From: an uncultured Acidimicrobiaceae bacterium
Lineage (GTDB): Bacteria; Actinomycetota; Acidimicrobiia; Acidimicrobiales; RAAP-2
Length of the DNA: 32,683 nucleotides
Direction: 5' to 3'
NCBI GenBank assembly: GCA_937881055.1
Contig: CALGFJ010000224.1
Span: 1-32,683 of the forward strand
The notes beneath the pieces were generated by a model. The model ran no database searches and was not told where the DNA came from. It was given only the letters and a program-made list of their open reading frames with translations. A program made the translations under genes and the position numbers. Every line of letters begins with the position of its first letter. Within the stretch, counting starts at the first letter, position 1. Shown in pieces: positions 2,879 to 15,392 of this stretch.

Positions 2879-4402
2879 TCAGCGCTCGTAGTGCACGACA
2901 CCATCGACGCGTCGCGGGATCGAGAGGGGATTGCCCTCTTGCAGGGCCGGTGGCAGCAGGTCGTCGGGTACGGACTGAAAGGTGACAGGGCGCAACCATC
3001 GTTCAACGGCGGCGGCCCCGACCGACGTGCTGGCGCTCGACGTCGTCGAGGGCCACGGACCACCGTGTTGCATCGACCAGCTCACGCCAACGCCCGTCGG
3101 GAAGCCGTTGACGATGACGCGACCGCTTCGCCGAGCACCGAGTTCCAAGAGCCAGCGGCCGTCTCGGTCGTTGTCGACGCCAAAGATACTGAAGGTGAGC
3201 GCGGGCTCGCTCGCGAGCAGCGCGTCGCGCAGTTCATCCTTCGAGTGGTATCGGACGATCAGCGCGCTCGGGCCGAAGCACTCTTCGCGCAGCGCGTAGG
3301 CGTCACGACCGACGAAGCGCGCGGCGTCCACTTCGTACAACTGCGCGGACGCGTGAGCGTCGCTTCCCGGGTCGTGCTGCACCAATGGCCGCACGTCACT
3401 GATGGCGGCGATGGCCTCGGTCCCGCGTCGAAAATGATCGGCGATCGACGAGGTGAGCATGGTGAAAGGGCCGAGCGCAGAAAGGGACTCCACGGTCGCG
3501 GCGACGAGGGCGTCACCGTCTTCGCCGCCCGGCACGAACACGAGGCCCGGCTTCGTGCAGAACTGTCCCACCCCCAGTGTCATCGACCCGGCGAGTGAGG
3601 ACCCGATCTCCGCAGCGCGCTCGGCCGCGGCGCTCTCGGTCACGACCAATGGATTCGCTGATCCGAGTTCACCAAAGAAGGGGATTGGCACGGAACGATC
3701 GTTCGCTCGTTCCCAGAGGGCCAGTCCGGCACCGACCGAACCGGTGAAGCCGATGGCACTGGTCTGTGGTGCGTCGACCAGTGCGGTACCGGCCTCGAGG
3801 CCGAAGATGAGATTCACCGTTCCCTTCGGCGCCTCACATCGTCGCGCGGCGCGTTCGAGCGCTTCAAACGTGGCGGCGCTCGTTGCCGGGTGCGCCGGGT
3901 GCGCCTTTATGACGACGGGACAACCGGCGGCGAGGGCGGACGCGGTGTCGCCGCCGGGGACCGAGAAGGCGAAGGGGAAATTCGAACTCCCGAAGACGCC
4001 CACCACGCCGATCGGAGAACGCATTCGTCGAAGGTCCGGCAGCGGTCCCATTGGCGAGTCGGTGGCGTGGTCAATGGTCGCGTCAAGAAATGTTCCGTCG
4101 CTCACGACATCGGCGAAGAATCGAAGCTGGAACGCGGTTCGACGCAGCTCACCTTCCAGGCGCGTCGTCGGCAACGCAGTCTCTGAGATCGCGAGTTCGA
4201 CCAGATTCGCCGCGTCACTCTCGAGTTCCTCGGCGATCGTTCGAAGAAGTCCGGCGCGCCAGTTCAGTGACCGGCTGGCGTAGTCGTCCAGTGCGGCCGC
4301 GGCCATTTCGGTCGCCGCCACAACCTCGGCGTCGCCATCTTCTTCGAAGCCCAGCGAACGATGTTCGCCCGTTTCTGGGTTGGTGCTTATGACGTCAGCC
4401 AC
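2879..4402 (-). CDS. Aldehyde dehydrogenase, 2,5-dioxovalerate (alpha-ketoglutarate semialdehyde) dehydrogenase type
   Basis: The 507-residue protein is an NAD(P)+ aldehyde dehydrogenase with the catalytic set visible: Asn141 in GVFGSSNFPFAF, Lys166 in VVIKAHPAHP, Glu245 in FFGELGSANP and nucleophile Cys282 in GQFCTKPG. The FPFAFS and KAHPAHP variants are typical of the ketoglutarate-semialdehyde branch. It would oxidise 2-oxoglutarate semialdehyde to 2-oxoglutarate, the last step of oxidative pentose, glucarate and hydroxyproline degradation. It is the last clear member of the operon that also encodes a sugar importer, a lactonase and a sugar-acid dehydratase, and it starts 3 bp after the lactonase stop. 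The pentose or sugar-acid route is therefore favoured over hydroxyproline. Cofactor preference cannot be read from the sequence. Confidence 0.85.
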   Translation of the reverse strand: MADVISTNPETGEHRSLGFEEDGDAEVVAATEMAAAALDDYASRSLNWRAGLLRTIAEELESDAANLVELAISETALPTTRLEGELRRTAFQLRFFADVVSDGTFLDATIDHATDSPMGPLPDLRRMRSPIGVVGVFGSSNFPFAFSVPGGDTASALAAGCPVVIKAHPAHPATSAATFEALERAARRCEAPKGTVNLIFGLEAGTALVDAPQTSAIGFTGSVGAGLALWERANDRSVPIPFFGELGSANPLVVTESAAAERAAEIGSSLAGSMTLGVGQFCTKPGLVFVPGGEDGDALVAATVESLSALGPFTMLTSSIADHFRRGTEAIAAISDVRPLVQHDPGSDAHASAQLYEVDAARFVGRDAYALREECFGPSALIVRYHSKDELRDALLASEPALTFSIFGVDNDRDGRWLLELGARRSGRVIVNGFPTGVGVSWSMQHGGPWPSTTSSASTSVGAAAVERWLRPVTFQSVPDDLLPPALQEGNPLSIPRRVDGVVHYER

Positions 4403-4405
4403 ATC

Positions 4406-5233
4406 TCACTCCGTTCTGGGAAGGCGAATCGGTGCACCGCGGTGCTCGGGCGCGATCGTCACGATGTTGTGACCGCAGAGCGACGCGAGGGCGAGCCGGT
4501 CGAGTCCATCGCCGTAATAGGCGACGTTGGTGGGCGAGAGGATCAGTTCGCCCGTCCACTCGTCGAAGATCAACTCGAGGCCGTCCTCTTTGGTCCAGCG
4601 CCACATTTGGTTCGGTTGGTAGCACGAGATCAACAGACCGCCCGCGGCGTCGAACGCTAAGCCGTCCGGGACGCAGCGCTCCAACTCGATCACCCGTTCG
4701 AGTTCGCCCCCGTCGAGCGCCAGCGCACTCACCGCGGGAGCGGCGGACTCGATGATCCAGAGCGTCGTCGCGTCGATCGCGATTCCGTTGGCGAACGCCA
4801 GTGGGCGCGTCGGCACCCGGGTCGTCGTGCCGTCGGCGTCGATCGCGACGATGCCCCCGCTCGCTTCTGAGAAGATTCCGGAGTCGGAGACGAAGAGGCG
4901 ACCGTCCGGGGCGAAGGCGGGGTAGTTGGGGTAGCCGATCGCGTCGCCGAAGGCCTCGATCACAAACTGCGCGTTCATCTTCCAGACTTGGTGATTCCCG
5001 GGGTCGCAGATGTAGAGCGCCCCACTCGCGTCCAGCGCCAGTCCCAAGAGAGCGCCGCCGTCGATGACCGTGACGACGTTGACCGAGCCGTCCAGTTCGA
5101 CGCGATAGACCTGGCCGCCTTCACCGCCGGCCCACAGGCACCGGCGAGCGGGATCCCAGCAGACACCCTCCACGTGATCGAATCCCGAGGCGAGGATCTG
5201 GTAATCGAGGGCGTCGGAGATCGTGGTCGCCAT
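4406..5233 (-). CDS. SMP-30/gluconolactonase family sugar lactonase
   Basis: The 275-residue product is a six-bladed beta-propeller of the SMP-30/LRE family. Likely metal ligands are Glu22 (HVEGVCWD), Asn149 (FANGIAID) and Asp190 (VPDGLAFD); Asn103 in GYPNYPAF is the usual substrate-side Asn. Repeated blade motifs such as ALDASGALYICDPGNHQVW are seen. It should hydrolyse an aldonolactone to the aldonic acid with a divalent metal ion in the cytosol. Its ATG overlaps the ATPase stop in TAATG, so translation is probably coupled. In this operon it fits the second step of a non-phosphorylating sugar route, between a sugar dehydrogenase and the IlvD/Edd dehydratase. Confidence 0.87.
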   Translation of the reverse strand: MATTISDALDYQILASGFDHVEGVCWDPARRCLWAGGEGGQVYRVELDGSVNVVTVIDGGALLGLALDASGALYICDPGNHQVWKMNAQFVIEAFGDAIGYPNYPAFAPDGRLFVSDSGIFSEASGGIVAIDADGTTTRVPTRPLAFANGIAIDATTLWIIESAAPAVSALALDGGELERVIELERCVPDGLAFDAAGGLLISCYQPNQMWRWTKEDGLELIFDEWTGELILSPTNVAYYGDGLDRLALASLCGHNIVTIAPEHRGAPIRLPRTE

Positions 5234-6396
5234 TACGAACTCCTTCGAAGGCTGAGACCGCTGTCGGTGTCGAAGAAGTGGAAGTGATCGGGATTCAGTC
5301 GAACCTGAAGTTGGTCGCCCACCGAGACGCCCGAACGCGGTCCCATCTTGGCGACGAGCGTCGTCGGTCGTGATACGACCGCGCCGCTGTCATTGACGAC
5401 GAACGCGTCGTTGCCTACGGCGTCGACCAGGGCGAGGTGGACGAGGATCTCTGCGCCCAGCGCCTCACGTCGTTCGACCTTCGTCGAGAGCGAGTCCGAA
5501 CCCGAGTGCTCGAGGACCTCGATGTCCTCGGGCCGGACGCCGAAGACCACCCCCGGTCCGTCCACCTTGGGCAGTTGGTGCGACGTGGCATAGTTCGAAG
5601 GGACGGCGAGGCGCTGCGAGCCCAGTACGAGGGCGAGGCCGGAGTCGTTCGATTCGAGAGAGCCTCGCAACAGGTTCATGGGAGGCGAGCCCATGAAGCC
5701 GGCCACGAACTCATTCCGTGGGTGGTCGTAGAGGTCCTGGGGTGTGTCGCACTGTTGGAGTTTCCCCCCACGCATGACCGCCACCCGATCGCCCATGGTC
5801 ATGGCCTCGATCTGGTCGTGCGTCACGTAGACGGTGGCCACGCCCAAGAGGCGCTGGATGCGCGCAATCTCGAGTCGCATCTCGACGCGTAACTGCGCGT
5901 CGAGGTTCGACAATGGCTCGTCCATCAAAAATGCCTGGGGACTGCGGACGATTGCCCGACCCATTGCCACGCGTTGACGTTGACCTCCCGAGAGCGCCTT
6001 CGGACGACGATCGAGGTAGTCGGTGAGTCGCAGGATCGCCGCCGCCTCGCCCACCTTCTTCGCGACCTCGGCTTTCGAAAGCCCACGGACCTTGAGGGCG
6101 AATCCCATGTTCTGCGCGACCGTCATGTGGGGGTAGAGGGCGTAGTTCTGAAAGACCATCGCGACGTCACGGTCCTTCGGCAAGACGTTGTTGACGACGG
6201 AGCCGCCGATCGAGAGCGTGCCCGACGTGATGTCCTCCAAACCGGCCAACATGCGAAGCGCCGTCGTCTTGCCACATCCCGACGGCCCGACCAGGACCAT
6301 GAACTCGCCGTCGGCGACGTGGAGTGACAGATCGTCGACCGCCCGAATATCGTCACCAAAGATCTTGGTGACGCCGTCGAAGGTGATCTCTGCCAT
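5233..6396 (-). CDS. Sugar ABC transporter ATP-binding protein (UgpC/MsmK family)
   Basis: The 387-residue ATPase has Walker A GPSGCGKTT (37-45), Q-loop FQNYALYPHM, signature LSGGQRQRVAMGRA (135-148), Walker B AFLMDEPLSNLD (155-166) and the switch His193 in VTHDQ. The remaining 150 residues form the TOBE-type regulatory domain, including FGVRPEDIEV, as in MalK, UgpC and MsmK. It energises the importer formed with the two permeases and the binding protein upstream. AAGGAG lies 8 nt before the ATG. Such ATPases often serve several importers, so it may not be exclusive to this substrate. Confidence 0.93.
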   Translation of the reverse strand: MAEITFDGVTKIFGDDIRAVDDLSLHVADGEFMVLVGPSGCGKTTALRMLAGLEDITSGTLSIGGSVVNNVLPKDRDVAMVFQNYALYPHMTVAQNMGFALKVRGLSKAEVAKKVGEAAAILRLTDYLDRRPKALSGGQRQRVAMGRAIVRSPQAFLMDEPLSNLDAQLRVEMRLEIARIQRLLGVATVYVTHDQIEAMTMGDRVAVMRGGKLQQCDTPQDLYDHPRNEFVAGFMGSPPMNLLRGSLESNDSGLALVLGSQRLAVPSNYATSHQLPKVDGPGVVFGVRPEDIEVLEHSGSDSLSTKVERREALGAEILVHLALVDAVGNDAFVVNDSGAVVSRPTTLVAKMGPRSGVSVGDQLQVRLNPDHFHFFDTDSGLSLRRSS

Positions 6397-6433: not shown

Positions 6434-7303
6434 TCATCGGTCGATTCCCATCGTGAGTCCCTTCACCAGATAGCGCTGGAAGCCGAGGTAGACGAGCATC
6501 GCCGGCAACGCGCTAATGATGGACCCGGCCATGAGTCCCGGGATCGACGTCGTTCGTCCGGCCGCGAGGACCGCGAGCCCGACGGTAATCGGTCGGTCCG
6601 ACGTGTTTTGAATGAAGAGGAGTCCGACGAGCAAGTCGTCCCAGATCTGGATGAACTGCAAGACCGTGACCGTGGCGATGGCCGGTACGGCGATCGGCAA
6701 GACGAGGCGCCACATCGCCCCGAAATATCCGAGTCCGTCGACGATGCCGGCTTCGATGAGTTCATCGGGTACGCCGCGGAAATACGTCGTGAAGAGAAAG
6801 ACCGAAAATGGGGTGCCCAGTGCCGCGTAGACGAGGATCGCACCGGTGTAGCCCCCGGTGAGATGCAACTTGGTGACGTTGACGAATTCGGGCATGAGAA
6901 TCGCCTGCAGTGGCACCATCATCGCGCTGACGATGACGAGGAACACCGCGGTCGAACTGCGAAAGCGCAATTTCGAGAACGCGAAGCCGGCCGGGAGCCC
7001 GACGCAGAGAATGATGAAAATCGACGCCGAACAGAGGATCGTGGAACTGAGCACCTCTTGGCCAACGGGGATGACGCTCGTCAAGCTCGACCAACTGAGC
7101 CACGAGAAGCCACCGCCGGAGAGGAACTGCGACTCCGACTTCAAACTCGTGATGACCATCACCCAGAACGGGTACAGCATGACAATCGCCACGATGACCA
7201 TTGCGCCAAAGAGAATCCAACGACCGACCTTTCGCGGCTTCTTCATTGCCCGCGGTTCACCGGTGCCTTCGGATTCGGTGGGTGGCGTGACGAGCGTGGT
7301 CAT
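6434..7303 (-). CDS. Sugar ABC transporter permease, MalG/UgpE type
   Basis: The 289-residue membrane protein has about six hydrophobic helices, starting WILFGAMVIVAIVMLYPFWVMVITSLKS, which is typical of the MalG side of CUT1 importers. The cytoplasmic EAA loop reads DELIEAGIVDGLGYFGAMWRLVLPIAVP, the coupling helix that contacts the ATPase. The C-terminus YLVKGLTMGIDR is the usual KGLTxGAVKG-like ending. Its start overlaps the stop of the MalF-like permease by 4 bp, so the two subunits are likely made together. Confidence 0.93.
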   Translation of the reverse strand: MTTLVTPPTESEGTGEPRAMKKPRKVGRWILFGAMVIVAIVMLYPFWVMVITSLKSESQFLSGGGFSWLSWSSLTSVIPVGQEVLSSTILCSASIFIILCVGLPAGFAFSKLRFRSSTAVFLVIVSAMMVPLQAILMPEFVNVTKLHLTGGYTGAILVYAALGTPFSVFLFTTYFRGVPDELIEAGIVDGLGYFGAMWRLVLPIAVPAIATVTVLQFIQIWDDLLVGLLFIQNTSDRPITVGLAVLAAGRTTSIPGLMAGSIISALPAMLVYLGFQRYLVKGLTMGIDR

Positions 7304-8223
7304 TCGTTTGACCCGATCAGTCGAAGTTGTACGACGCCGACGATGCCGGTGATCACGAAGAGGATCAACCCGTAGAGCGCGGCCGTCCCGAAGTCACCCT
7401 GATTAAAGCCGGTCTCGTAGATCAAGAACTCCATGGTGGTCGTGGCGTAGCCCGGACCGCCGCCCGTCATGACGAAGATGAGACTGAAGAGGGCCGAAAA
7501 GAGTGCGATCACGGTCATGACGAACGCCAACTGGATGAAGCGACTGAGGTGGGGCAGTGTGATGCTGCGAAAGATTCTCCACCGGCCAGCGCCATCGATG
7601 CGCGCCGCTTCTTCGAGGCTCGGATCTAGTGTCGCCAGTCCCGTGAGAAAGAGCATCGTGTTCGTGCCAATCATCGTGAAGACGAACGTGATGCCGAGCG
7701 CAATGAGCGCTTCTGACTGATAACCCAACATGTTCGTGCTGATGTGGGAGAAGCCCAGAGCGTGAATGATCGAATTCAGCGTTCCTTGGTAGGCGAAGAA
7801 TCGCTCGGCGACCAGTCCAAGCACGACCCACGAGATGGCGGTCGGGAGAAAGTAGATGGAACGGAAGACCCGCCATCCGGCCACACGCTGGTGGAGGAGT
7901 ACCGCGATACCAAGTGGGATTGCGAGCGCAAAGGGTACGGAGAGCAGCAACAAGCCGTTGTTGCGTAGCGCGGTCCAGAGATTTGTGTTGTGGAAGGCCT
8001 GGGTCCAGGTGGACGGACCGATCCACGTCGACGTCAGGCCATTCCACTGCGTGAAGGAGTAGTAGACCGCTTGGCCAATCGGCACACCGATGAAGCACAC
8101 AACAAGCGCGATCGCCGGCAACGCGAACACGACGCCCGCGAACTGGCGACGTCGCTTAAGCGTCATCCGCCTCGCCTTGGGGGCGAACGTCGGTGTCGCT
8201 GGGATGGGGATCGTTGTGCTCAT
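7300..8223 (-). CDS. Sugar ABC transporter permease, MalF/UgpA type
   Basis: The 307-residue protein has a basic N-terminus (KARRMTLKRRRQ) and about six membrane helices, beginning FAGVVFALPAIALVVCFIGVPIGQAVYYSF. The EAA loop is EEAARIDGAGRWRIFRSITLPHL. VMTGGGPGYATTTMEFLIYETGF near the C-terminus is a hallmark of this permease family. It pairs with the MalG-type subunit encoded next, with a 4-bp overlap. A strong stem-loop lies between this gene and that of the binding protein upstream, which could make permease levels lower than binding-protein levels. Confidence 0.93.
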   Translation of the reverse strand: MSTTIPIPATPTFAPKARRMTLKRRRQFAGVVFALPAIALVVCFIGVPIGQAVYYSFTQWNGLTSTWIGPSTWTQAFHNTNLWTALRNNGLLLLSVPFALAIPLGIAVLLHQRVAGWRVFRSIYFLPTAISWVVLGLVAERFFAYQGTLNSIIHALGFSHISTNMLGYQSEALIALGITFVFTMIGTNTMLFLTGLATLDPSLEEAARIDGAGRWRIFRSITLPHLSRFIQLAFVMTVIALFSALFSLIFVMTGGGPGYATTTMEFLIYETGFNQGDFGTAALYGLILFVITGIVGVVQLRLIGSNE

Positions 8224-8315: not shown

Positions 8316-9614
8316 TTAACCCGCGAAGCCCTTGGAGCTACGCTGCGCGGCGGGTAGCAACTTCCACGCCTGGGCCATGTTCTGCAGTGCCTTAAGCGGC
8401 TGTGTCTGGTTCGCGAGAACCGACGGCAACTCACTGTCGGCGGCGTTACCGACGTTGACCTGGACGTAGTTGTCCATCATCGGGTACGGCGTCATGTGAT
8501 CGACCGTGACGAAGTTCAACATCTCCTGGTTCACCGGGTTGGTCGTCTTCAGACCGGTGATGTCGGGAATGAGTCCGGCCGCGTTGATGATGTTGCCGGC
8601 CTGCGTGGTCGTCAAGAAGTCGAGGAATTTGAAGGCGTCCTTCTTGTTCTTCGAGTACTTGGTCACCGAGAAGCCGTCACCCGGGTACTCCACCACTCCC
8701 TTGATCGGGGTGTTGGAGTACGGCGGCACGAACGCCGCGACGTTGGTGCCCATCGTCTGGGTGTACTTCGACGTGTCCCACGTGCCGTCGACCATCATGG
8801 CCGCCTTACCCTTCTCAAACTGCTGGATGTTGGCGGTGTTCGTCAAGACGTCGGAATTGGTGTAGCCGTCTTTTTGCAGCGTGGCCCACATCTTGAGTTG
8901 GGCGACGTTCGTCGATGACGTCCACGGGATTGCTCCGTCGTACAGACCCTTCCAACTGGTTAGTGAGTGCGCCCCGATCATGAGGTAACTCATGTCGTAC
9001 CAGGGGTAGAACTCGGTGCTGATCGCTTGACCGCCGTTGCCGTAGACCATGGGCTGGATGCCCTTCGCCTTCAGCGCCTTGCAGTCCGCCAAGAGTTGGG
9101 TCCAATCAGTCGGCACTGAGGTGATGCCCGCCTTCTTGAACAACGCCTTGTTGTAGAACCCGATGTAGAACTGGGTCTCGAGTGGCATGACGTACGCGCC
9201 CTTCGAAACGTTGAAGTTCGGCGCCTCCCACTGCAGGCCCTCCATCTTCGACAGATCCGCGGCCGGCACGTTGCCCTTCAGGTTCTCGAGATAGCTCGAG
9301 TACTGGAGGTCGTAGATGCCCGTCCACATCACTGCCAAGTCGGGGCCGTTACCCGAGATCGCGGCCGACTGGAGCAAAGTGAAATAGCTCGTTCCCGGTT
9401 GAGGGACGTCCACGATCTTGATGTTGGGATTCAGCTTTTCGAAGGCCGCGATCAAGTTCGTGGTCGCCACGGCGTTCTGTTCGGTTCCGTAGTTTTGCCA
9501 TAGGGTCAAAGTCGTCTTGGCACTTGCCGACGCTGGTCCCGACGCGTAGAACGTACCGGCGAGAACAAGCGTTGCGGCGACCGCGCCGAAACTCCTCATT
9601 CGTATCTTTTTCAA
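8316..9614 (-). CDS. Extracellular sugar-binding protein of ABC transporter (family 1, CUT1)
   Basis: The 432-residue protein starts with a signal peptide: basic MKKIRMRS, hydrophobic FGAVAATLVLAGTFYA, then SGPASASAKTT. The mature part opens with TLTLWQNYGTEQ and has FEKLNPNIKIVDV, GPDLAVMWTGIYDL, QFYIGFYNKALFKKAGI and GKAAMMVDGTWD, all typical of family 1 solute-binding proteins for oligo- or monosaccharides. It captures substrate outside the membrane for the two permeases. No Cys lies in the signal region, so it lacks a lipobox. The start is TTG at 9614, supported by a purine-rich ribosome binding site at 9622-9631; the ATG five codons later is the alternative. The sugar cannot be read from the sequence. 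Confidence 0.92.
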   Translation of the reverse strand: MKKIRMRSFGAVAATLVLAGTFYASGPASASAKTTLTLWQNYGTEQNAVATTNLIAAFEKLNPNIKIVDVPQPGTSYFTLLQSAAISGNGPDLAVMWTGIYDLQYSSYLENLKGNVPAADLSKMEGLQWEAPNFNVSKGAYVMPLETQFYIGFYNKALFKKAGITSVPTDWTQLLADCKALKAKGIQPMVYGNGGQAISTEFYPWYDMSYLMIGAHSLTSWKGLYDGAIPWTSSTNVAQLKMWATLQKDGYTNSDVLTNTANIQQFEKGKAAMMVDGTWDTSKYTQTMGTNVAAFVPPYSNTPIKGVVEYPGDGFSVTKYSKNKKDAFKFLDFLTTTQAGNIINAAGLIPDITGLKTTNPVNQEMLNFVTVDHMTPYPMMDNYVQVNVGNAADSELPSVLANQTQPLKALQNMAQAWKLLPAAQRSSKGFAG

Positions 9615-9678: not shown

Positions 9679-11394
9679 TCAAGATCTGCCCACTACCGGC
9701 TCATCGAGGTGGGGACGTTGTCCCGTCTCGAGGGCCAAGAAATCAAAGTCACAACCGGCCGGAGCCTGGGTGACGTGTCGTCGATAAAGTTCAACATAAC
9801 CCCGCGTTGCGGTGCGAGTCTGGTCACGGGTGCCGCGTCGCGCGGTCATCTCCTCGGGTGAAATCGCCACGTTGATGAGCCCGGCGTCGGCGTCAACCGT
9901 GATGACGTCGCCGTCACGAACGAGCCCGATCGGTCCGTCGGCGGCGCCCTCGGGTGCGACGTGCAAGAACACGGTGCCGAAACTGGTTCCGCTCATGCGC
10001 GCGTCGGTGACCCGCACCATATCGGTGACGCCTTGCTCGAGCAGGGGGGTGGGAATGGGGATCATTCCCCACTCCGGCATACCCGGTCCGCCGATGGGAC
10101 CCGCGCCGCTCAACACCAAAACGGCGTCGGGCGACGCCGACGAGTCTGGGCCCGTCCGCTGCGTCACTTCGTCGGTGTCGCGCATGACGAACGCCGGGCC
10201 CGAGTGGCGCAACAGCGACGCCGTCGCCGCGGATCGTTTGATGAGCGCGCCGTCGGGTGCCAAATTCCCTCGAACCACTCGAAAGGCTCCGGCGGCGTCG
10301 ACGGGGTCGCTTTGATCGCGGACCGCGCCCTGGGGCGTGAGAGCGCGCGATTGCAGGTCGGCCATAGAACGCCCGTCGGCGAGGATCGTTTCGCCATCGA
10401 GCAGATTGCCGAGGGCTCCAAAGACCGTGGGAATCCCACCAACGTCGTCGAGGTCTTCCATCAACGCCTCGCCCGTAGGTTCCACGTCGACAATGACGGG
10501 GACGCTTCGTCCGACGCGGTCGACCGCGTCGAGATCGAGTTCGAGCCCCAGCCGTCGGGCCATCGCCGTGAGATGGATCACCGCGTTCGTCGAGCCGCCG
10601 AGCGCCCCGAGTACCGTCAACGCGTTGTCGACCGATGCCTGGGTGACTTGACTCGAGACCGTGGTACCGAAGGTGACGAGCGACACGATACGTTGGCCCA
10701 CATTGTGGGCGATGGAAAGATGCCTCGGATCGCCCGCCGGAATCGACGTTGAGCCGGGCCAGGCCAGTCCGAGGGCTTCGCATATGGCACCCATCGACGA
10801 CGCGGTTCCCATCGTGTTGCACGTTCCCTTGCCGAGCGTCAGGGCACTCTCGAGCTCGCTCCAGGCTTCGTCGCTGAGCTCGCCACGGCGCCGTTCGTCC
10901 CACAGCCGCCACAGATCGGTGCCGGTGCCGATCCGACGGCCCTGGAAGATCGCTACTGGCCGGGGTCCGGAGACCAGAATCAGACAAGGTACGTTCGCGC
11001 TGAACGCACCCATCAACGCACCGGGTATGGACTTGTCGCAGGCGGCCAAGACGACGAGCCCGTCCAGGGGTTGGCTGCGCACCGACTCCTCGACCTCCAT
11101 CGCGAGGAGGTTGCGATAGAGCATGGATGAGGGCTTCATCAAGTCCTCGCCGAGTGAGAGAACGGGGAACTCGACCGCGATGCCGCCGGCCGATTCGATG
11201 CCTTCACGCAAGGGAGCGACGTATTCAGCGAGTGGTTGGTTGCAGGGATTGAGGTCACTCGAAGAGTTCGCGATGCCGATGATTGGTCGGCCACCGCTGG
11301 CGTCAACCGAAGCCCCGCCCATCTTCAACGCGACGCGACTGTCGAGGGCGACTTCATCGTCGCCCCGCACCCATCGGTCGCTTCGCAGGGTCAT
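9679..11394 (-). CDS. IlvD/Edd family dehydratase, probable sugar-acid (aldonate) dehydratase
   Basis: The 571-residue protein has the three iron-sulfur ligand cysteines of the family: Cys51 in SSSDLNPCNQ, Cys119 in AACDKSIPGAL and Cys192 in GKGTCNTMGTASSM. C-terminal blocks such as LSGAGPIGGPGMPEWGMIPIP and TDARMSGTSFGTVFLHVAPE are also typical. Members are dihydroxy-acid dehydratases (IlvD), phosphogluconate dehydratases (Edd) or xylonate/arabonate/gluconate dehydratases. Context decides here: the gene lies between a sugar importer and a U32-like protein gene, with lactonase and ketoglutarate-semialdehyde dehydrogenase genes downstream, and no branched-chain amino-acid genes nearby. It would convert an aldonate to its 2-keto-3-deoxy form. 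Its ATG overlaps the previous stop by 4 bp. Confidence 0.85.
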   Translation of the reverse strand: MTLRSDRWVRGDDEVALDSRVALKMGGASVDASGGRPIIGIANSSSDLNPCNQPLAEYVAPLREGIESAGGIAVEFPVLSLGEDLMKPSSMLYRNLLAMEVEESVRSQPLDGLVVLAACDKSIPGALMGAFSANVPCLILVSGPRPVAIFQGRRIGTGTDLWRLWDERRRGELSDEAWSELESALTLGKGTCNTMGTASSMGAICEALGLAWPGSTSIPAGDPRHLSIAHNVGQRIVSLVTFGTTVSSQVTQASVDNALTVLGALGGSTNAVIHLTAMARRLGLELDLDAVDRVGRSVPVIVDVEPTGEALMEDLDDVGGIPTVFGALGNLLDGETILADGRSMADLQSRALTPQGAVRDQSDPVDAAGAFRVVRGNLAPDGALIKRSAATASLLRHSGPAFVMRDTDEVTQRTGPDSSASPDAVLVLSGAGPIGGPGMPEWGMIPIPTPLLEQGVTDMVRVTDARMSGTSFGTVFLHVAPEGAADGPIGLVRDGDVITVDADAGLINVAISPEEMTARRGTRDQTRTATRGYVELYRRHVTQAPAGCDFDFLALETGQRPHLDEPVVGRS

Positions 11395-12332
11395 GGCTCG
11401 GGGACTCCGATGCCTTCAGCGCCGGGCTTGGAGATCGTGAGATCGATGGCCGACGCCTCGAGGAACTCCAGCGCCAGTGATGCTCGACGAACCTTCTCTC
11501 GGACGTTCGCGACGAGGTCACTCATGTTGTGTTCTCCGGCGGGGTAGACCATGCGGGCGTTGCGCAGTCCGAACTTCGCGTAGAGCGGAGCAGCGACCGT
11601 GGCGATCTCGGCCAGCTCGTTGCCGCGAACCATCCCACCGAGGGCGTCCGGGGCTTCGAGATAAAGGTCGATGGGCGCGTCGCTCGCGGCCCTAATCTCG
11701 GCCAGTTCCAACAAACTCACGTCACTCGGCACGTTGACCGTGCTTCCGCCCATGTCGATGAGTTGTGCGAAGGACACCGGATTGGACGGCGCCAGGACCG
11801 CTGAGATCTTCCACACGATCGACGACGGAAGTTCGCCGTCGCCCGTCATGGCCTTCACGAGTTGCATGAGGCCACTGTCCGCGATCAAGAATCCGCGAAT
11901 GCCCGCGTCGACGGCGCGCAAGATATCTTCAATCGCGTAACGAAGCTGGTCGAGACCACGGAGTCGTCCCGAGAGCACGAGTCCTTCGGGGCTGCGCACC
12001 GATCCGCCAATGCCGTACTCTTCGCGCGGTCCGACGAAGAGGCTCACTTCGAGACCTTCATCGGCGCCGATGACGGCCATTTCGATGAGTTCAGAACGGG
12101 TGAGCAGCATGGCGCCGCTGCCCTGGGACGTTCGGTGGATCGGCGTCTTCAGGACTCGGCCCTCTTCGACCACGGCGCGAAGCGCCGAGGGATTCTCGAC
12201 ACTCGGAATCTCAATGCGGAAATGCGCTCCGTCGGGGAAGCGATGTTCGCTCGGCTGCACGGTGTCGACGAGCGCGGCGAAGTGGCGCTGAAGCGCCGCC
12301 GTGCCGCGAGGACTTCCAGTACCTCTAATCAT
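11391..12332 (-). CDS. U32-peptidase-like TIM-barrel protein of unknown function
   Basis: The 313-residue protein resembles, from memory, a family often labelled U32 peptidase that occurs in actinobacterial carbohydrate clusters. It begins with HFRIEIPSVENPSALRAVV, then TPIHRTSQGSGAMLLTRSEL, GLEVSLFVGPREEY, GIRGFLIADSGLMQLV, LDVYLEAP-like DLYLEAPDALGGMVR and KFGLRNARMVYPAG. Alternating strands and helices suggest a TIM barrel. The Cys-rich motif of genuine U32 proteases is absent, so proteolysis is doubtful. It overlaps the dehydratase start by 4 bp and the M24-like stop region closely, so all three are probably made together. A lyase, dehydratase or isomerase role in sugar-acid breakdown is an inference. 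A purine-rich site before the ATG at 12332 sets the start. Confidence 0.6.
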   Translation of the reverse strand: MIRGTGSPRGTAALQRHFAALVDTVQPSEHRFPDGAHFRIEIPSVENPSALRAVVEEGRVLKTPIHRTSQGSGAMLLTRSELIEMAVIGADEGLEVSLFVGPREEYGIGGSVRSPEGLVLSGRLRGLDQLRYAIEDILRAVDAGIRGFLIADSGLMQLVKAMTGDGELPSSIVWKISAVLAPSNPVSFAQLIDMGGSTVNVPSDVSLLELAEIRAASDAPIDLYLEAPDALGGMVRGNELAEIATVAAPLYAKFGLRNARMVYPAGEHNMSDLVANVREKVRRASLALEFLEASAIDLTISKPGAEGIGVPEP

Positions 12333-12345: not shown

Positions 12346-13485
12346 TCACTGGACAACTTTTACCCGGCTGTGTTGCATCCCACCATGATCCGACGTCATC
12401 GCCCACGCCCCGGAAGACGTGACCAGTTCGAAACCATCGGACCCCACAAGGTAGGTCTCTTCGATCTTCGCTCCACCTCGCAGGCTCGGATTCCACGCGA
12501 CCGCGACGTCGGATTGACAACCGATGTCCCAGAACGGTGAGTCACTCTGCGTGGGAGCGAGCTCGAATTCGCGCTGCTCGAACGCGATCGGGCCACCTTG
12601 GAAGTGTTCGCGCCACGCGCCGGGTTGAGCGATGTTGTCGTAACCCTTGGCGAGAGCTTCAATCGCGTCGCCCCAGCTGTGTCCGGGTCGAGACGAGCTC
12701 AGAACCGCTTGGTGCACCGGCTCGAGTCGTTGCGTGAGTTCGAGGATTGGGTCGTCTTCGTGGGTGATCGCACTGCGCGTCGCTGCGACGTGAAGACCGC
12801 CGCGCCGAGCGACCACGACGGCCATCAACGCCTCTCGAATGACGGCACCGATGGCGAGGGGATGTCGAATTGAGCGAAGTCGTTCGTCGCCTCCCACGAT
12901 GAGGCAGACGGCCTTTGCCCCGTGTCGTTCCAGTTCACGGCTCACGACTGAAGCGACCTCGTAGTCACTCGAAACGCCCGGGTTCCAGGAGTCGATGCCC
13001 GCCTCGAGCGCACGCGCGGCGTCCGCGCCCAGTGAACGTAGGTCATCTTGTTCGGGGACACTCAACACCAATCGTGCTGCCACGATCGCGGTCATGATGT
13101 TCGAACCAATCCCGTCACTATCACTCAGGAGTTCGTCTGGCGTCACCCCGGCGAAGTTCGCGGCCGCGCGAAGGGGTGCGCCCGCGTCGAACCACGGAAC
13201 GCTGATGACGTCCCATCCGAGCGATTCGATGTCAAAGTCACGGAGCAGTCGAGGAGCTTCGATCTCACTCGTGACGAGCGCTCGACCGTTCTTCGATTCG
13301 ACGGCCCAGACGGGGTCCTGGGCGGCGGTGATGTCGACGGGGTCCGACAGACCACCGGTGATCCAGTTGACGGAGCCCGGAGTCGTGAGTACCAAAGGTC
13401 GCTCGTCGAAATGTGCCCGCAGCGACGTGACGCTCTCTCGCGAAGCGTCACCCCTTTCGCCGATACGAATTTCTCTGTTCGGCAC
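12346..13485 (-). CDS. M24 (creatinase/aminopeptidase P) fold protein lacking metal-binding aspartates
   Basis: From the GTG at 13485 the product has 379 residues: an N-terminal creatinase-like domain (about 20-140) and a C-terminal pita-bread domain (about 145-365). His294 in WREHFQGGPIAFEQREFEL and Glu342 in GGAKIEETYLVGSDGFELVT match the conserved His and Glu blocks. The strand that should carry the two metal-binding Asp reads MAVVVARRGGLHVAATRS, with no Asp, and the usual HE after the His block is QRE. This looks like a non-metal member, as creatinase is, or an inactive one. It is the first gene of the sugar-acid operon. The start is uncertain: the frame is open to 13632, but that would overlap the divergent regulator, and no clear ribosome binding site is seen. 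Confidence 0.65.
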   Translation of the reverse strand: MPNREIRIGERGDASRESVTSLRAHFDERPLVLTTPGSVNWITGGLSDPVDITAAQDPVWAVESKNGRALVTSEIEAPRLLRDFDIESLGWDVISVPWFDAGAPLRAAANFAGVTPDELLSDSDGIGSNIMTAIVAARLVLSVPEQDDLRSLGADAARALEAGIDSWNPGVSSDYEVASVVSRELERHGAKAVCLIVGGDERLRSIRHPLAIGAVIREALMAVVVARRGGLHVAATRSAITHEDDPILELTQRLEPVHQAVLSSSRPGHSWGDAIEALAKGYDNIAQPGAWREHFQGGPIAFEQREFELAPTQSDSPFWDIGCQSDVAVAWNPSLRGGAKIEETYLVGSDGFELVTSSGAWAMTSDHGGMQHSRVKVVQ

Positions 13486-13493
13486 AACAAAAC

Positions 13494-13556
13494 GCTTGTC
13501 GGTATTGATTCGTTCATACAAGCAGGTATTTAGAGCAAGGTCAAGTGAATACTTGC
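13494..13556. promoter_or_regulatory. Divergent regulatory region with inverted repeats, candidate IclR operator
   Basis: Between the divergent starts at 13485 and 13591 lie GCAGGTATT (13522-13530) and AATACTTGC (13548-13556), complementary at 8 of 9 positions, and a second pair GCTTGT (13494-13499) with ACAAGC (13518-13523), fully complementary. Repeats between an IclR gene and its divergent target operon are the expected place for the operator. The TATTGT at 13577-13582 could be the -10 box of the regulator gene. Confidence 0.45.
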
Positions 13557-13590
13557 GAAAGATATCGGCTAGACCGTATTGTGTTGGCCT

Positions 13591-14391
13591 GTGCCGAACA
13601 CCAGAGAACAAGACAAGAGATACGAAGTTCAATCAGTGGCACGCGCCGCGTCGCTACTCGACCTCGTCGGCGGTTCCGGCGCTGGAGGACTCGGCGTCAC
13701 CGAGATCGCCGGGCATTTGAAGGTCGCCAAGAGCACGGCCCTCTCGCTCGCGAGGACGCTGAGTTCCGCCGGTCTGTTGCGGGCCATCGATCCCGGTCCT
13801 CGCTACGTACTCGGCCTCAATCTTCTGCGACTCGGCGACCTCGTCGGCCAACAGACCTCGATTGCCGAACTCGGATTGCCGACGTTGCGAGACCTTTCGA
13901 GCGTCACGGGCTTGACCGCTCGACTCGCCATGAACGAGAACGGCTATCCCGTCTTTCTCGAGCGTATCGACGGTGAGGGGTCCATTCGCTTTCACGCGCC
14001 ACTCGGACAACGCGAGGAACCACACGCGACCGCAGCGGGCAAAGCGATCCTCGCCGAAATGAATGAGCAACAGGTTCGTGATCTCATCGCGGAGGCGGGC
14101 ATGGCCGTCCACACCTCCAAGACGTTGACGGACGTGACGGCGCTTCTCGAGGACCTCGATCGAGTTCGCGTTGAGGGCTACGCGACCGACGACGAGGAGG
14201 AGGCCGAAGGAGTATTTTGCGTCGGCGCGGCGTTCTTTGACCATCAGGGCAATTGCGCCGGAGCGCTGAGTATCACCGGACTCAAAGCTGACGTCCCCCT
14301 TCGCGAAGTGCAACGACTCGGGACCATCGTGAAAGATCACGCCGAGCGAATGACGTTTTTACTCGGCGGGATGCGTCCGGAGCGACGATGA
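13591..14391 (+). CDS. IclR family transcriptional regulator
   Basis: About 266 residues. The N-terminal winged helix runs YEVQSVARAASLLDLV, GLGVTEIAGHLKVAKSTALSLARTLSSAGLL, with a recognition helix around KSTALSLARTL, then RYVLGLNLLRLG. The C-terminal effector domain has LTARLAMNENGYPVFLERIDG, LGQREEPHATAAGKAILAEM, GYATDDEEEAEGVFCVGAAFFD and the GALSITGL end, all standard for IclR. It probably controls the divergent sugar-acid operon, binding the inverted repeats upstream and responding to a pathway intermediate. The start may be GTG at 13591 or TTG at 13579; neither has a ribosome binding site. The dehydrogenase gene follows with a 4-bp overlap, so it is likely part of the regulon. Confidence 0.9.
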   Translation: MPNTREQDKRYEVQSVARAASLLDLVGGSGAGGLGVTEIAGHLKVAKSTALSLARTLSSAGLLRAIDPGPRYVLGLNLLRLGDLVGQQTSIAELGLPTLRDLSSVTGLTARLAMNENGYPVFLERIDGEGSIRFHAPLGQREEPHATAAGKAILAEMNEQQVRDLIAEAGMAVHTSKTLTDVTALLEDLDRVRVEGYATDDEEEAEGVFCVGAAFFDHQGNCAGALSITGLKADVPLREVQRLGTIVKDHAERMTFLLGGMRPERR

Positions 14392-15392
14392 TGCGTGCGC
14401 TGGTCGTACGATCACCGCACGACGTCGCGCTCGACACCGTCGGTGATCCCGCCCTCGGCAAAGACGACGTGTTGGTCACCCCACTCCTCGCTGGCATGTG
14501 CGCCACTGACCTCGAATTGATCGACGGCAGCATCGATCCCGCGTACGTGCGCTACCCGTTGATCCTCGGTCATGAATGGGTCGGCCGAGTGGAAGCTGAC
14601 GTACCCGGAGTGGCGACGCGGGGCGACCGTGTCGTCGTCGAAGGGATCGTTGCGTGCGGCACCTGTGACGAATGTCGAATCGACGCGACGAATCGCTGCT
14701 CGACGTACGACGAGATCGGCTTCACCCGTCCCGGCGCGATCGCCGAGCACATCGCCGTGCCGATCCGCCTCGTGCACCGGGTCGATGATTCGGTGAATAC
14801 CGACGACGTTGTGCTCGTCGAGCCGATGGCGGTCGTGTGGCGAGCGATCACGCGATTTCCCTTGCGTGAGCGCCTGAACGTCGCCGTGATCGGTGATGGC
14901 ACGATCGCGCTCTTGGCCGCACATCTGGTCCGACGATTCAATCCCGTTCGCGTCGTCGTGGTCGGTCGGCGAAGCGCCCAAGAGACATTGGCGAAGGCGG
15001 TGGGTGCCGACCAATTCGTCACTGAGGAACCGGGTGATCGATTCGACCTCGTCATCGAGGCCGCCGGCACTGGCGCGTCGGCGTCGTCGGCTATCTCACT
15101 CGCCGCCCGCGGGGCGATGGTGATCCTCCTCGGATTGCCCGCGCACGGCACGCTTATTGACGTCGCGCCGCATGACCTGGTCAACAATGACGTCGTGATC
15201 CAAGGGAGTTTCGCGTACACGCGCCAATCGTTCACCGAGGTCGTCGAGCAAGTCAACATCGGAAATCTTAAGCCTTCATTTTTGATCACTCACCGTTTCT
15301 CGATGGATCAGACGAGTGACGCGATTGGCACGTTGCGAGGTCGCGTGGCCGATGACGAGCCTCGCGGCAAGGTCGTCATCTCGCTCACGTAG
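14388..15392 (+). CDS. Zinc-dependent medium-chain alcohol/polyol dehydrogenase
   Basis: The 334-residue protein has catalytic zinc ligands in AGMCATDLEL and ILGHEWVGRVE, the four-Cys structural zinc lobe ACGTCDECRIDATNRC, and a Rossmann motif VAVIGDGTIALLAAHLVRRF with VVVVGRRSA after the second strand. The Arg pair there hints at NADP(H), but this is weak. Relatives include sorbitol, threonine and sugar 1-dehydrogenases. It overlaps the IclR stop by 4 bp (ATGA) and stands opposite the sugar-acid operon. It could supply the missing first oxidation (sugar to lactone) or oxidise a 2-keto-3-deoxy acid. Which of these it does cannot be decided from the sequence. It ends 17 bp from the convergent hisA. 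Confidence 0.85.
   Translation: MMRALVVRSPHDVALDTVGDPALGKDDVLVTPLLAGMCATDLELIDGSIDPAYVRYPLILGHEWVGRVEADVPGVATRGDRVVVEGIVACGTCDECRIDATNRCSTYDEIGFTRPGAIAEHIAVPIRLVHRVDDSVNTDDVVLVEPMAVVWRAITRFPLRERLNVAVIGDGTIALLAAHLVRRFNPVRVVVVGRRSAQETLAKAVGADQFVTEEPGDRFDLVIEAAGTGASASSAISLAARGAMVILLGLPAHGTLIDVAPHDLVNNDVVIQGSFAYTRQSFTEVVEQVNIGNLKPSFLITHRFSMDQTSDAIGTLRGRVADDEPRGKVVISLT

Follow-up and report, generated by a model that had tools for sequence, protein, structure and literature searches.

Locus and gene order

The window, the whole stretch of DNA analysed here, comprises 32,683 nucleotides of contig CALGFJ010000224.1 (assembly GCA_937881055.1) from an uncultured Acidimicrobiaceae bacterium. Its minus strand carries a gene for a U32-like barrel protein, which is followed in the same operon by a gene for a sugar-acid dehydratase of the IlvD/Edd type. 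Read along the minus strand, the order of genes is M24-like gene, U32-like gene, IlvD/Edd gene, solute-binding protein, two permeases, ATPase, SMP-30-like gene and aldehyde dehydrogenase (Table 1).

The U32-like gene begins with the ATG at 12332-12330 and ends with the stop codon at 11393-11391. The original prediction, made from the letters of the window, had the gene translationally coupled to both neighbours. Downstream, the claimed 4-bp overlap is present as ATGA on the coding strand (11391-11394, TCAT on the plus strand), in which the U32-like gene stops and the IlvD/Edd gene starts. Upstream, the stop codon of the preceding gene (12348-12346) is adjacent to the U32-like ATG at a distance of 13 nt, without any overlap of the reading frames, and the gap region contains a purine-rich stretch that resembles a Shine-Dalgarno sequence by eye.

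Table 1. Positions in the window of the U32-like gene, its conserved elements and the surrounding genes
Feature	Position	Strand	Basis
U32-like (beta/alpha)8 barrel protein, 313 aa, 0 Cys	11391..12332	-	Open reading frame, alignment, predicted model, profile comparison
Motif HRTSQGSGAMLL, residues 66-77, beta2 strand and next loop	12102..12137	-	Alignment, model
Motif DLYLEAPDALGGMVR, residues 222-236, beta7 strand and next loop	11625..11669	-	Alignment, model
Lys175 on beta5	11808..11810	-	Alignment, model
Lys253, end of beta8	11574..11576	-	Alignment, model
IlvD/Edd dehydratase, sugar-acid type	9679..11394	-	Pfam, NCBIfam, PDB search
Upstream gene, candidate M24-peptidase-like (unconfirmed)	12346..13632	-	Motif reading; without Pfam match
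ABC (ATP-binding cassette) solute-binding protein	8316..9614	-	Pfam
Two ABC permease genes (7300-8223, 6434-7303)	6434..8223	-	Read by eye; kept in related loci
ABC ATPase	5233..6396	-	Read by eye; kept in related loci
SMP-30/gluconolactonase-like candidate lactonase	4406..5233	-	Read by eye; NCBIfam only ScyD/ScyE-family match, below cut-off
Aldehyde dehydrogenase	2879..4402	-	NCBIfam, PDB search
IclR-type regulator, divergent	13624..14391	+	Pfam, NCBIfam
Zinc-type alcohol/sugar dehydrogenase, divergent	14388..15392	+	Pfam, NCBIfam

A U32-type barrel without the cysteine motif

In a tree of 98 rows, a window clade of 73 rows was separated with support of 100/99, and 25 rows lay outside it. 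An outer clade of 20 loci was distributed over Bacillota, Chloroflexota, Acidobacteriota, Pseudomonadota, an archaeon and others. When the family was compared profile to profile with the Escherichia coli U32 proteins UbiU, UbiV, TrhP and RlhA, the probability was 94.4% (E 8.8e-8, residues 45-226 aligned), whereas the control sets of other TIM barrels gave 5.3% (GatY/KbaY) and 0.3% (YagE/NanA/DapA). The outer-clade relatives alone matched the U32 set with 83.9% (E 7.7e-6). The Pfam model Peptidase_U32 (PF01136) scored the window protein at 15.4 bits (E 0.011), below its cut-off of 22.4 bits, and matched 30 of the 50 aligned sequences at E<=0.01, with a best value of 1.3e-6; the window's own sequence is not among these 30.

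The window protein contains no cysteine, and no column of the 50-row alignment has cysteine in more than 10 rows. The four-cysteine motif of the U32 oxidases, as described in PMC11574389, was looked for in the form CX6CX15CX3C and was absent from both the window protein and the alignment. The profile alignment with the U32 set ends at Glu226, just ahead of the canonical first cysteine after strand 7; at this site the window protein has EAPDALGG, inside the motif DLYLEAPDALGGMVR. The alignment of the outer clade spans the site, with DNPPA against SLCIM, and outer-clade sequences are also free of cysteine there. These comparisons support the placement of the protein in a branch of the U32 family that lacks the iron-sulfur cysteines. 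It shares a homologous barrel with UbiU, UbiV, RlhA and TrhP, but those proteins have the four-cysteine iron-sulfur motif and an invariant histidine, while the window protein has no such motif, a lysine (Lys175) instead and a different gene context. Two of ten U32 families, PepU32#5 and #6, are described in PMC6747719 as lacking a fully conserved cysteine cluster, and the window family resembles them as far as that description goes.

Thirty-three columns are invariant in the alignment of 50 sequences. They include R67 and G73, within HRTSQGSGAMLL, and P228, G232, G233 and R236, within DLYLEAPDALGGMVR; S69-Q70-G71-S72, Y224 and E226 are identical throughout the first 30 rows. Lys253, located where strand beta8 ends, is invariant in all 50 sequences. 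Lys175 on strand beta5, which aligns with the histidine that is invariant across the four E. coli U32 proteins, is lysine in 47 of the 49 rows counted (30/30 and 17/19). Both lysines may be catalytic residues. At positions 179, 224 and 226 the outer clade has His and Asp, and the window clade mostly Val, Tyr and Glu.

An AlphaFold2 model (pLDDT 87.6) showed an eight-stranded (beta/alpha)8 barrel. The U32 structure 5d88 was among its Foldseek matches (E 1.8e-6, Z 13.4, root-mean-square deviation (rmsd) 3.7 over 188 residues), but it was not separated from other barrels: CutC, RuBisCO-like proteins, class II aldolases and the U32 protein Mk0906 matched nearly equally, with Z of 13-15 and rmsd of 2.8-4.8 among the barrel matches listed. 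Since many barrels score so closely, the fold does not pick out a function. The class II aldolases (YdjI, tagatose- and fructose-bisphosphate aldolase) are among the nearest solved folds, YdjI with a Foldseek TM of 0.44-0.58, but GatY/KbaY gave only the control value above in the profile comparison.

No characterised enzyme was found by sequence. A PDB search with the single protein gave no match at E<=10, none of the 50 aligned sequences had an NCBIfam match at E<=0.01, and PF00701 (DHDPS/NAL) did not match the window protein at E<=1 and gave 0.3% in hhalign. Profile matches in the PDB, all at E 0.036 or worse, were treated as chance: six bL21 ribosomal proteins, one OR486 entry and an 18-residue stretch of the tagatose-bisphosphate aldolase AgaY. 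The results thus agree with the original prediction of a U32-like barrel that has lost the cysteine motif and to which no known enzyme assignment fits, and the PDB searches showed no close similarity to a characterised enzyme outside sugar metabolism.

Conserved pairing with sugar-acid dehydratases

A family member was present at E<=1e-10 in 39 of 396 genomes drawn from the phylum. Neighbouring genes were detected by phmmer from seed proteins at E<=1e-10, so that distant versions can escape, and distances were taken to the longest open frame and may come out too short. From 108 matching loci, 10 were dropped before counting: those at or cut by contig ends (L011, L018, L049, L059, L061, L062, L065 and L141), L124, whose contig agrees with that of L007 in length and neighbours, and L026. 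At L026 (8001-8880) an apparent fusion of U32 and IlvD was rejected, as the U32 gene contains an unread stretch (X) and continues behind it in another frame; an assembly fault is likely. A dehydratase adjoins the gene at L011, L018, L026, L059, L124 and L141, so dropping loci does not inflate its share. Some loci come from closely related genomes, and the counts below are therefore not independent events.

A sugar-acid dehydratase was encoded within 8 kb at 59 of the 73 window-clade loci (IlvD/Edd at 33, MR/MLE at 26). Outside the clade the figure was 0 of 25 loci, 13 of which have 5 kb on both sides. Restricted to window-clade loci with 5 kb or more on each side, the share was 39/46, and at 42/73 the dehydratase was within 100 bp. 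Half of the 14 loci without a dehydratase (7) have less than 5 kb on one side. The predicted pairing with a sugar-acid dehydratase is therefore upheld, and the neighbourhoods are strongly non-random.

The MR/MLE type was confirmed by Pfam on one representative. Its label requires four changes on the tree, which indicates that the link between the U32-like gene and a sugar-acid dehydratase survives the swap for an unrelated dehydratase. Other genes near the window-clade loci were ABC transporter genes (65/73), alcohol dehydrogenase or SDR genes (56/73), candidate lactonases of the SMP-30-like or metallo-beta-lactamase-fold types (32/73), the M24-like gene (31/73) and aldehyde dehydrogenase (24/73). 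On the megaplasmid of Thermomicrobium roseum, a gene annotated as 'U32 family peptidase' follows genes for a sugar ABC transporter, an MR/MLE enzyme and a metallo-beta-lactamase-fold hydrolase. A group of nine genomes (f32) combines MR/MLE, alcohol dehydrogenase and U32 genes with a second type of sugar ABC transporter; they probably belong to Streptomyces, because the copy on a Streptomyces nigrescens plasmid (L098) groups with them.

Other genes of the window operon

The nearest solved relative of the window dehydratase was 8ej0, named a dihydroxyacid dehydratase (480 bits), followed by L-arabinonate dehydratase (442 bits), while chloroplast dihydroxy-acid dehydratases scored only about 274-283 bits. 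It passes the NCBIfam subfamily model PRK06131 and fails the model of L-arabinonate dehydratase. For the aldehyde dehydrogenase, the top NCBIfam model was 2,5-dioxovalerate dehydrogenase, at 108.8 bits far below the cut-off of 750, and the top solved relatives were 1eyy and 3v4c.

Neither Pfam (E<=1) nor the PDB (E<=0.01) gave a match for the gene upstream of the U32-like gene. Its C-terminal pattern (HFQGG ... GGAKIEETYLV) is one that we take to recall M24 peptidases, with the usual Asp metal ligands seemingly lost; the tools did not confirm this identity, and a profile comparison with one Xaa-Pro peptidase of T. roseum gave 0.5%. The predicted structure of its product was of low confidence (pLDDT 38).

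Relatives in the outer clade

In the outer clade, the genes within 8 kb of the U32-like gene were different: creatininase-family genes at 12 of the 20 loci, cupin at 11, aldehyde:ferredoxin oxidoreductase at 10, Ldh_2 at 9, malic enzyme at 8 (by eye) and a two-part fumarase at 7. A cluster of cupin, U32-like, creatininase-family and aldehyde:ferredoxin oxidoreductase genes recurs in L041-L058, often with Ldh_2, fumarase and malic enzyme. The wider family is thus not confined to sugar metabolism. An aldehyde-oxidising enzyme is common in both clades, which would fit a reaction that makes an aldehyde.

Two further observations concern other loci. On a plasmid of Enterobacter chuandaensis (L100:10847-23084), a distant U32-like gene is accompanied by genes for a phosphotransferase, an aminotransferase, an oxidoreductase, an M14 metallopeptidase, a nucleotidyltransferase, an MFS transporter and two iron-containing redox enzymes, a cluster that looks biosynthetic. 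In small genomes of one genus (L119:8338-10177, L120, L127 and L130) the U32-like gene sits on a long branch; it comes after a gene of one family at L119 and L120, and at L119 this gene is panB-like by eye.

A candidate for the step after the dehydratase

The gene content suggests an oxidative, non-phosphorylative sugar pathway that includes a cysteine-free U32-type TIM barrel. The ABC transporter would import the sugar, the dehydrogenase would oxidise it to a lactone, and the lactonase candidate would open the lactone. The IlvD/Edd enzyme would then dehydrate the sugar acid to a 2-keto-3-deoxy sugar acid. On this product the U32-like barrel might act, either by removal of a second water, which would convert a pentose derivative to alpha-ketoglutaric semialdehyde, or by retro-aldol cleavage to pyruvate and an aldehyde, and the aldehyde dehydrogenase of the operon would oxidise the resulting aldehyde. 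We give a rough probability of 0.43 to the U32-like protein being a 2-keto-3-deoxy sugar acid dehydratase or aldolase acting on the IlvD/Edd product; the sugar, the order of the steps and the reaction are inferred.

A parallel to the pair of U32-like and IlvD/Edd genes is found in E. coli, in which yagE (annotated as 2-dehydro-3-deoxygluconate aldolase) stands beside yagF (D-xylonate dehydratase, related to IlvD/Edd). YagE is presumably a member of the DHDPS family and differs from the window family, as the low probability of the YagE/NanA/DapA control indicates. The 2-keto-3-deoxypentonate dehydratases, which would catalyse the same step if the U32-like protein is a dehydratase of this kind, belong to other superfamilies, being placed in the FAH and DHDPS/NAL superfamilies by the 2022 review PMC9795676. 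Members of these superfamilies were searched for in 14 window-type genomes: G000, G349, G208 and those of L001-L006, L008, L009, L012, L013 and L016. The genomes of L010, L011, L014, L015, L017, L018, L026 and L059 were left out of these searches.

None of the 14 genomes yielded a close relative of the L112 FAH-family protein, the best match having 33% identity (E 1.9e-12). DHDPS-family genes numbered exactly one in 9 genomes, none in 2 and more in 3; the single gene of G349 looks like dapA by eye, and the two genomes with none are the window's own (92% complete) and G405. Since the operon has no other known family for the step, no close FAH relative was found in the 14 genomes and most of them have at most one DHDPS-family gene, the U32-like gene is the best placed candidate between the 2-keto-3-deoxy acid and the aldehyde.

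Several observations weigh against assigning this step to the U32-like protein. Both DHDPS-free genomes lack even dapA, and such absences may be missing sequence. Other candidates are encoded in trans: PF01081 aldolases in 4 of the 14 window-type genomes, including the window's own, HpcH/HpaI proteins in all 14, and RraA-like proteins in 11. Of the three HpcH/HpaI proteins in the window genome, the two whose sequences were read look to us like CoA-ester lyases, judging by motifs typical of these. For the RraA-like proteins, one 2-keto-3-deoxyglucarate dehydratase/decarboxylase is described in PMC8563752. The M24-like upstream gene is itself a second candidate for the missing step in the window operon. 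Two outer-clade proteins (L060 and L063) have Met in place of Lys175. In addition, a gene of the PNP/UDP-phosphorylase family, so labelled by Pfam on the L064 copy, occurs among or beside the ABC genes at 4 of the 73 loci (L019, L022, L034 and L064), which hints at a nucleoside-like substrate and does not fit a sugar acid.

At 8 of the 73 loci the U32-like gene has an FAH-family gene within 8 kb, and 17 of 30 further U32-bearing genomes carry one as well; of four non-window-type genomes, G032 (the source of the query), G070 and G408 have it and G407 does not. If the FAH-family protein is the 2-keto-3-deoxy acid dehydratase, as we assume, the step would be filled twice in such genomes. We therefore rejected the idea that the U32-like protein universally replaces the FAH-type dehydratase. 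In FAH-bearing genomes, either two enzymes share the step, for example for different stereoisomers or as cleavage and dehydration, or the U32-like protein does something else, such as epimerisation. In seven non-window-type genomes the DHDPS-family genes number 1 to 8, so that the argument from a missing enzyme cannot be carried over to these genomes. No close FAH relative was found in the nine f32 genomes, one of which, G128, has 8 DHDPS-family matches.

The window genome also holds a second sugar cluster on contig C311 (L152:4396-9781), with a protein of the PF01081 KDPG-aldolase family and, named by eye, a PfkB-type kinase, two SDRs, a zinc dehydrogenase and an amidohydrolase. Judging from its genes, this cluster could process 2-keto-3-deoxy acids in trans.

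Alternative functions

An epimerase or isomerase ahead of the dehydratase, converting a sugar or aldonate to the stereoisomer required by IlvD or MR/MLE, would also explain the tight coupling at distances of up to 100 bp. Two kinds of loci fit such a role: the set at L112 (alcohol dehydrogenase, metallo-beta-lactamase-fold protein, IlvD, FAH and aldehyde dehydrogenase) looks complete without the U32-like protein, and at L110 and L128 the U32-like gene stands alongside FAH and aldehyde dehydrogenase genes. It would, however, leave the conversion of the 2-keto-3-deoxy acid to an aldehyde unfilled by known operon families in the window-type genomes, and the Pfam, NCBIfam and PDB sequence searches of the protein showed no resemblance to an epimerase family. 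We consider this function unlikely, though less so than the ones below.

The protein might instead be a hydrolase, with a sugar lactone as its substrate or else a 2,4-diketo acid, the latter as in dehydrogenase/hydrolase Route III, which combines an SDR with a hydrolase as outlined in PMC6336799. SDR genes adjoin the dehydratase in loci of the FadR-U32-MR/MLE-SDR arrangement, and the creatininase-family genes that are frequent in the outer clade encode hydrolases. A lactonase candidate is, however, already near 32 of the 73 window-clade loci, though not the other 41, and a hydrolase role seems to us distinctly unlikely.

A non-catalytic role, as partner or stabiliser of the dehydratase, is improbable: close coupling is what such a role would produce, and aldolases do have accessory proteins (GatZ and KbaZ carry the annotation of putative aldolase chaperones), but the protein accompanies two unrelated dehydratases and has many charged residues that are invariant across phyla. 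A peptidase or iron-sulfur oxidase, as the family name would have it, finds an argument in the U32 descent, but given a protein with no cysteine, no four-cysteine motif and sugar-catabolic surroundings it is very improbable. "Peptidase" is therefore probably the wrong label for the U32-like gene, as the original prediction had suspected.

Meaning for the U32 family and for actinobacterial sugar metabolism

Keyword searches of the open-licence literature found, among the papers listed and judged by titles and the openings of abstracts, no published link between the U32-like gene and sugar-acid dehydratases. We put forward, as a tentative proposal with somewhat less than even chances, that the U32 fold gave rise to a cysteine-free, non-oxidase metabolic enzyme. 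Such enzymes would add another, unrelated superfamily to the 2-keto-3-deoxy sugar acid dehydratases or aldolases, one that completes actinobacterial oxidative sugar pathways beside either of two unrelated dehydratases.

If this is true, the label 'U32 family peptidase' conceals a sugar-degrading enzyme, and the U32 barrels would gain a second chemistry that works without an iron-sulfur cluster. The enzyme would also close a gap in the oxidative breakdown of pentoses or hexoses by actinobacteria, Streptomyces and lineages from peat and soil among them, and a new enzyme would become available for the conversion of plant sugars.

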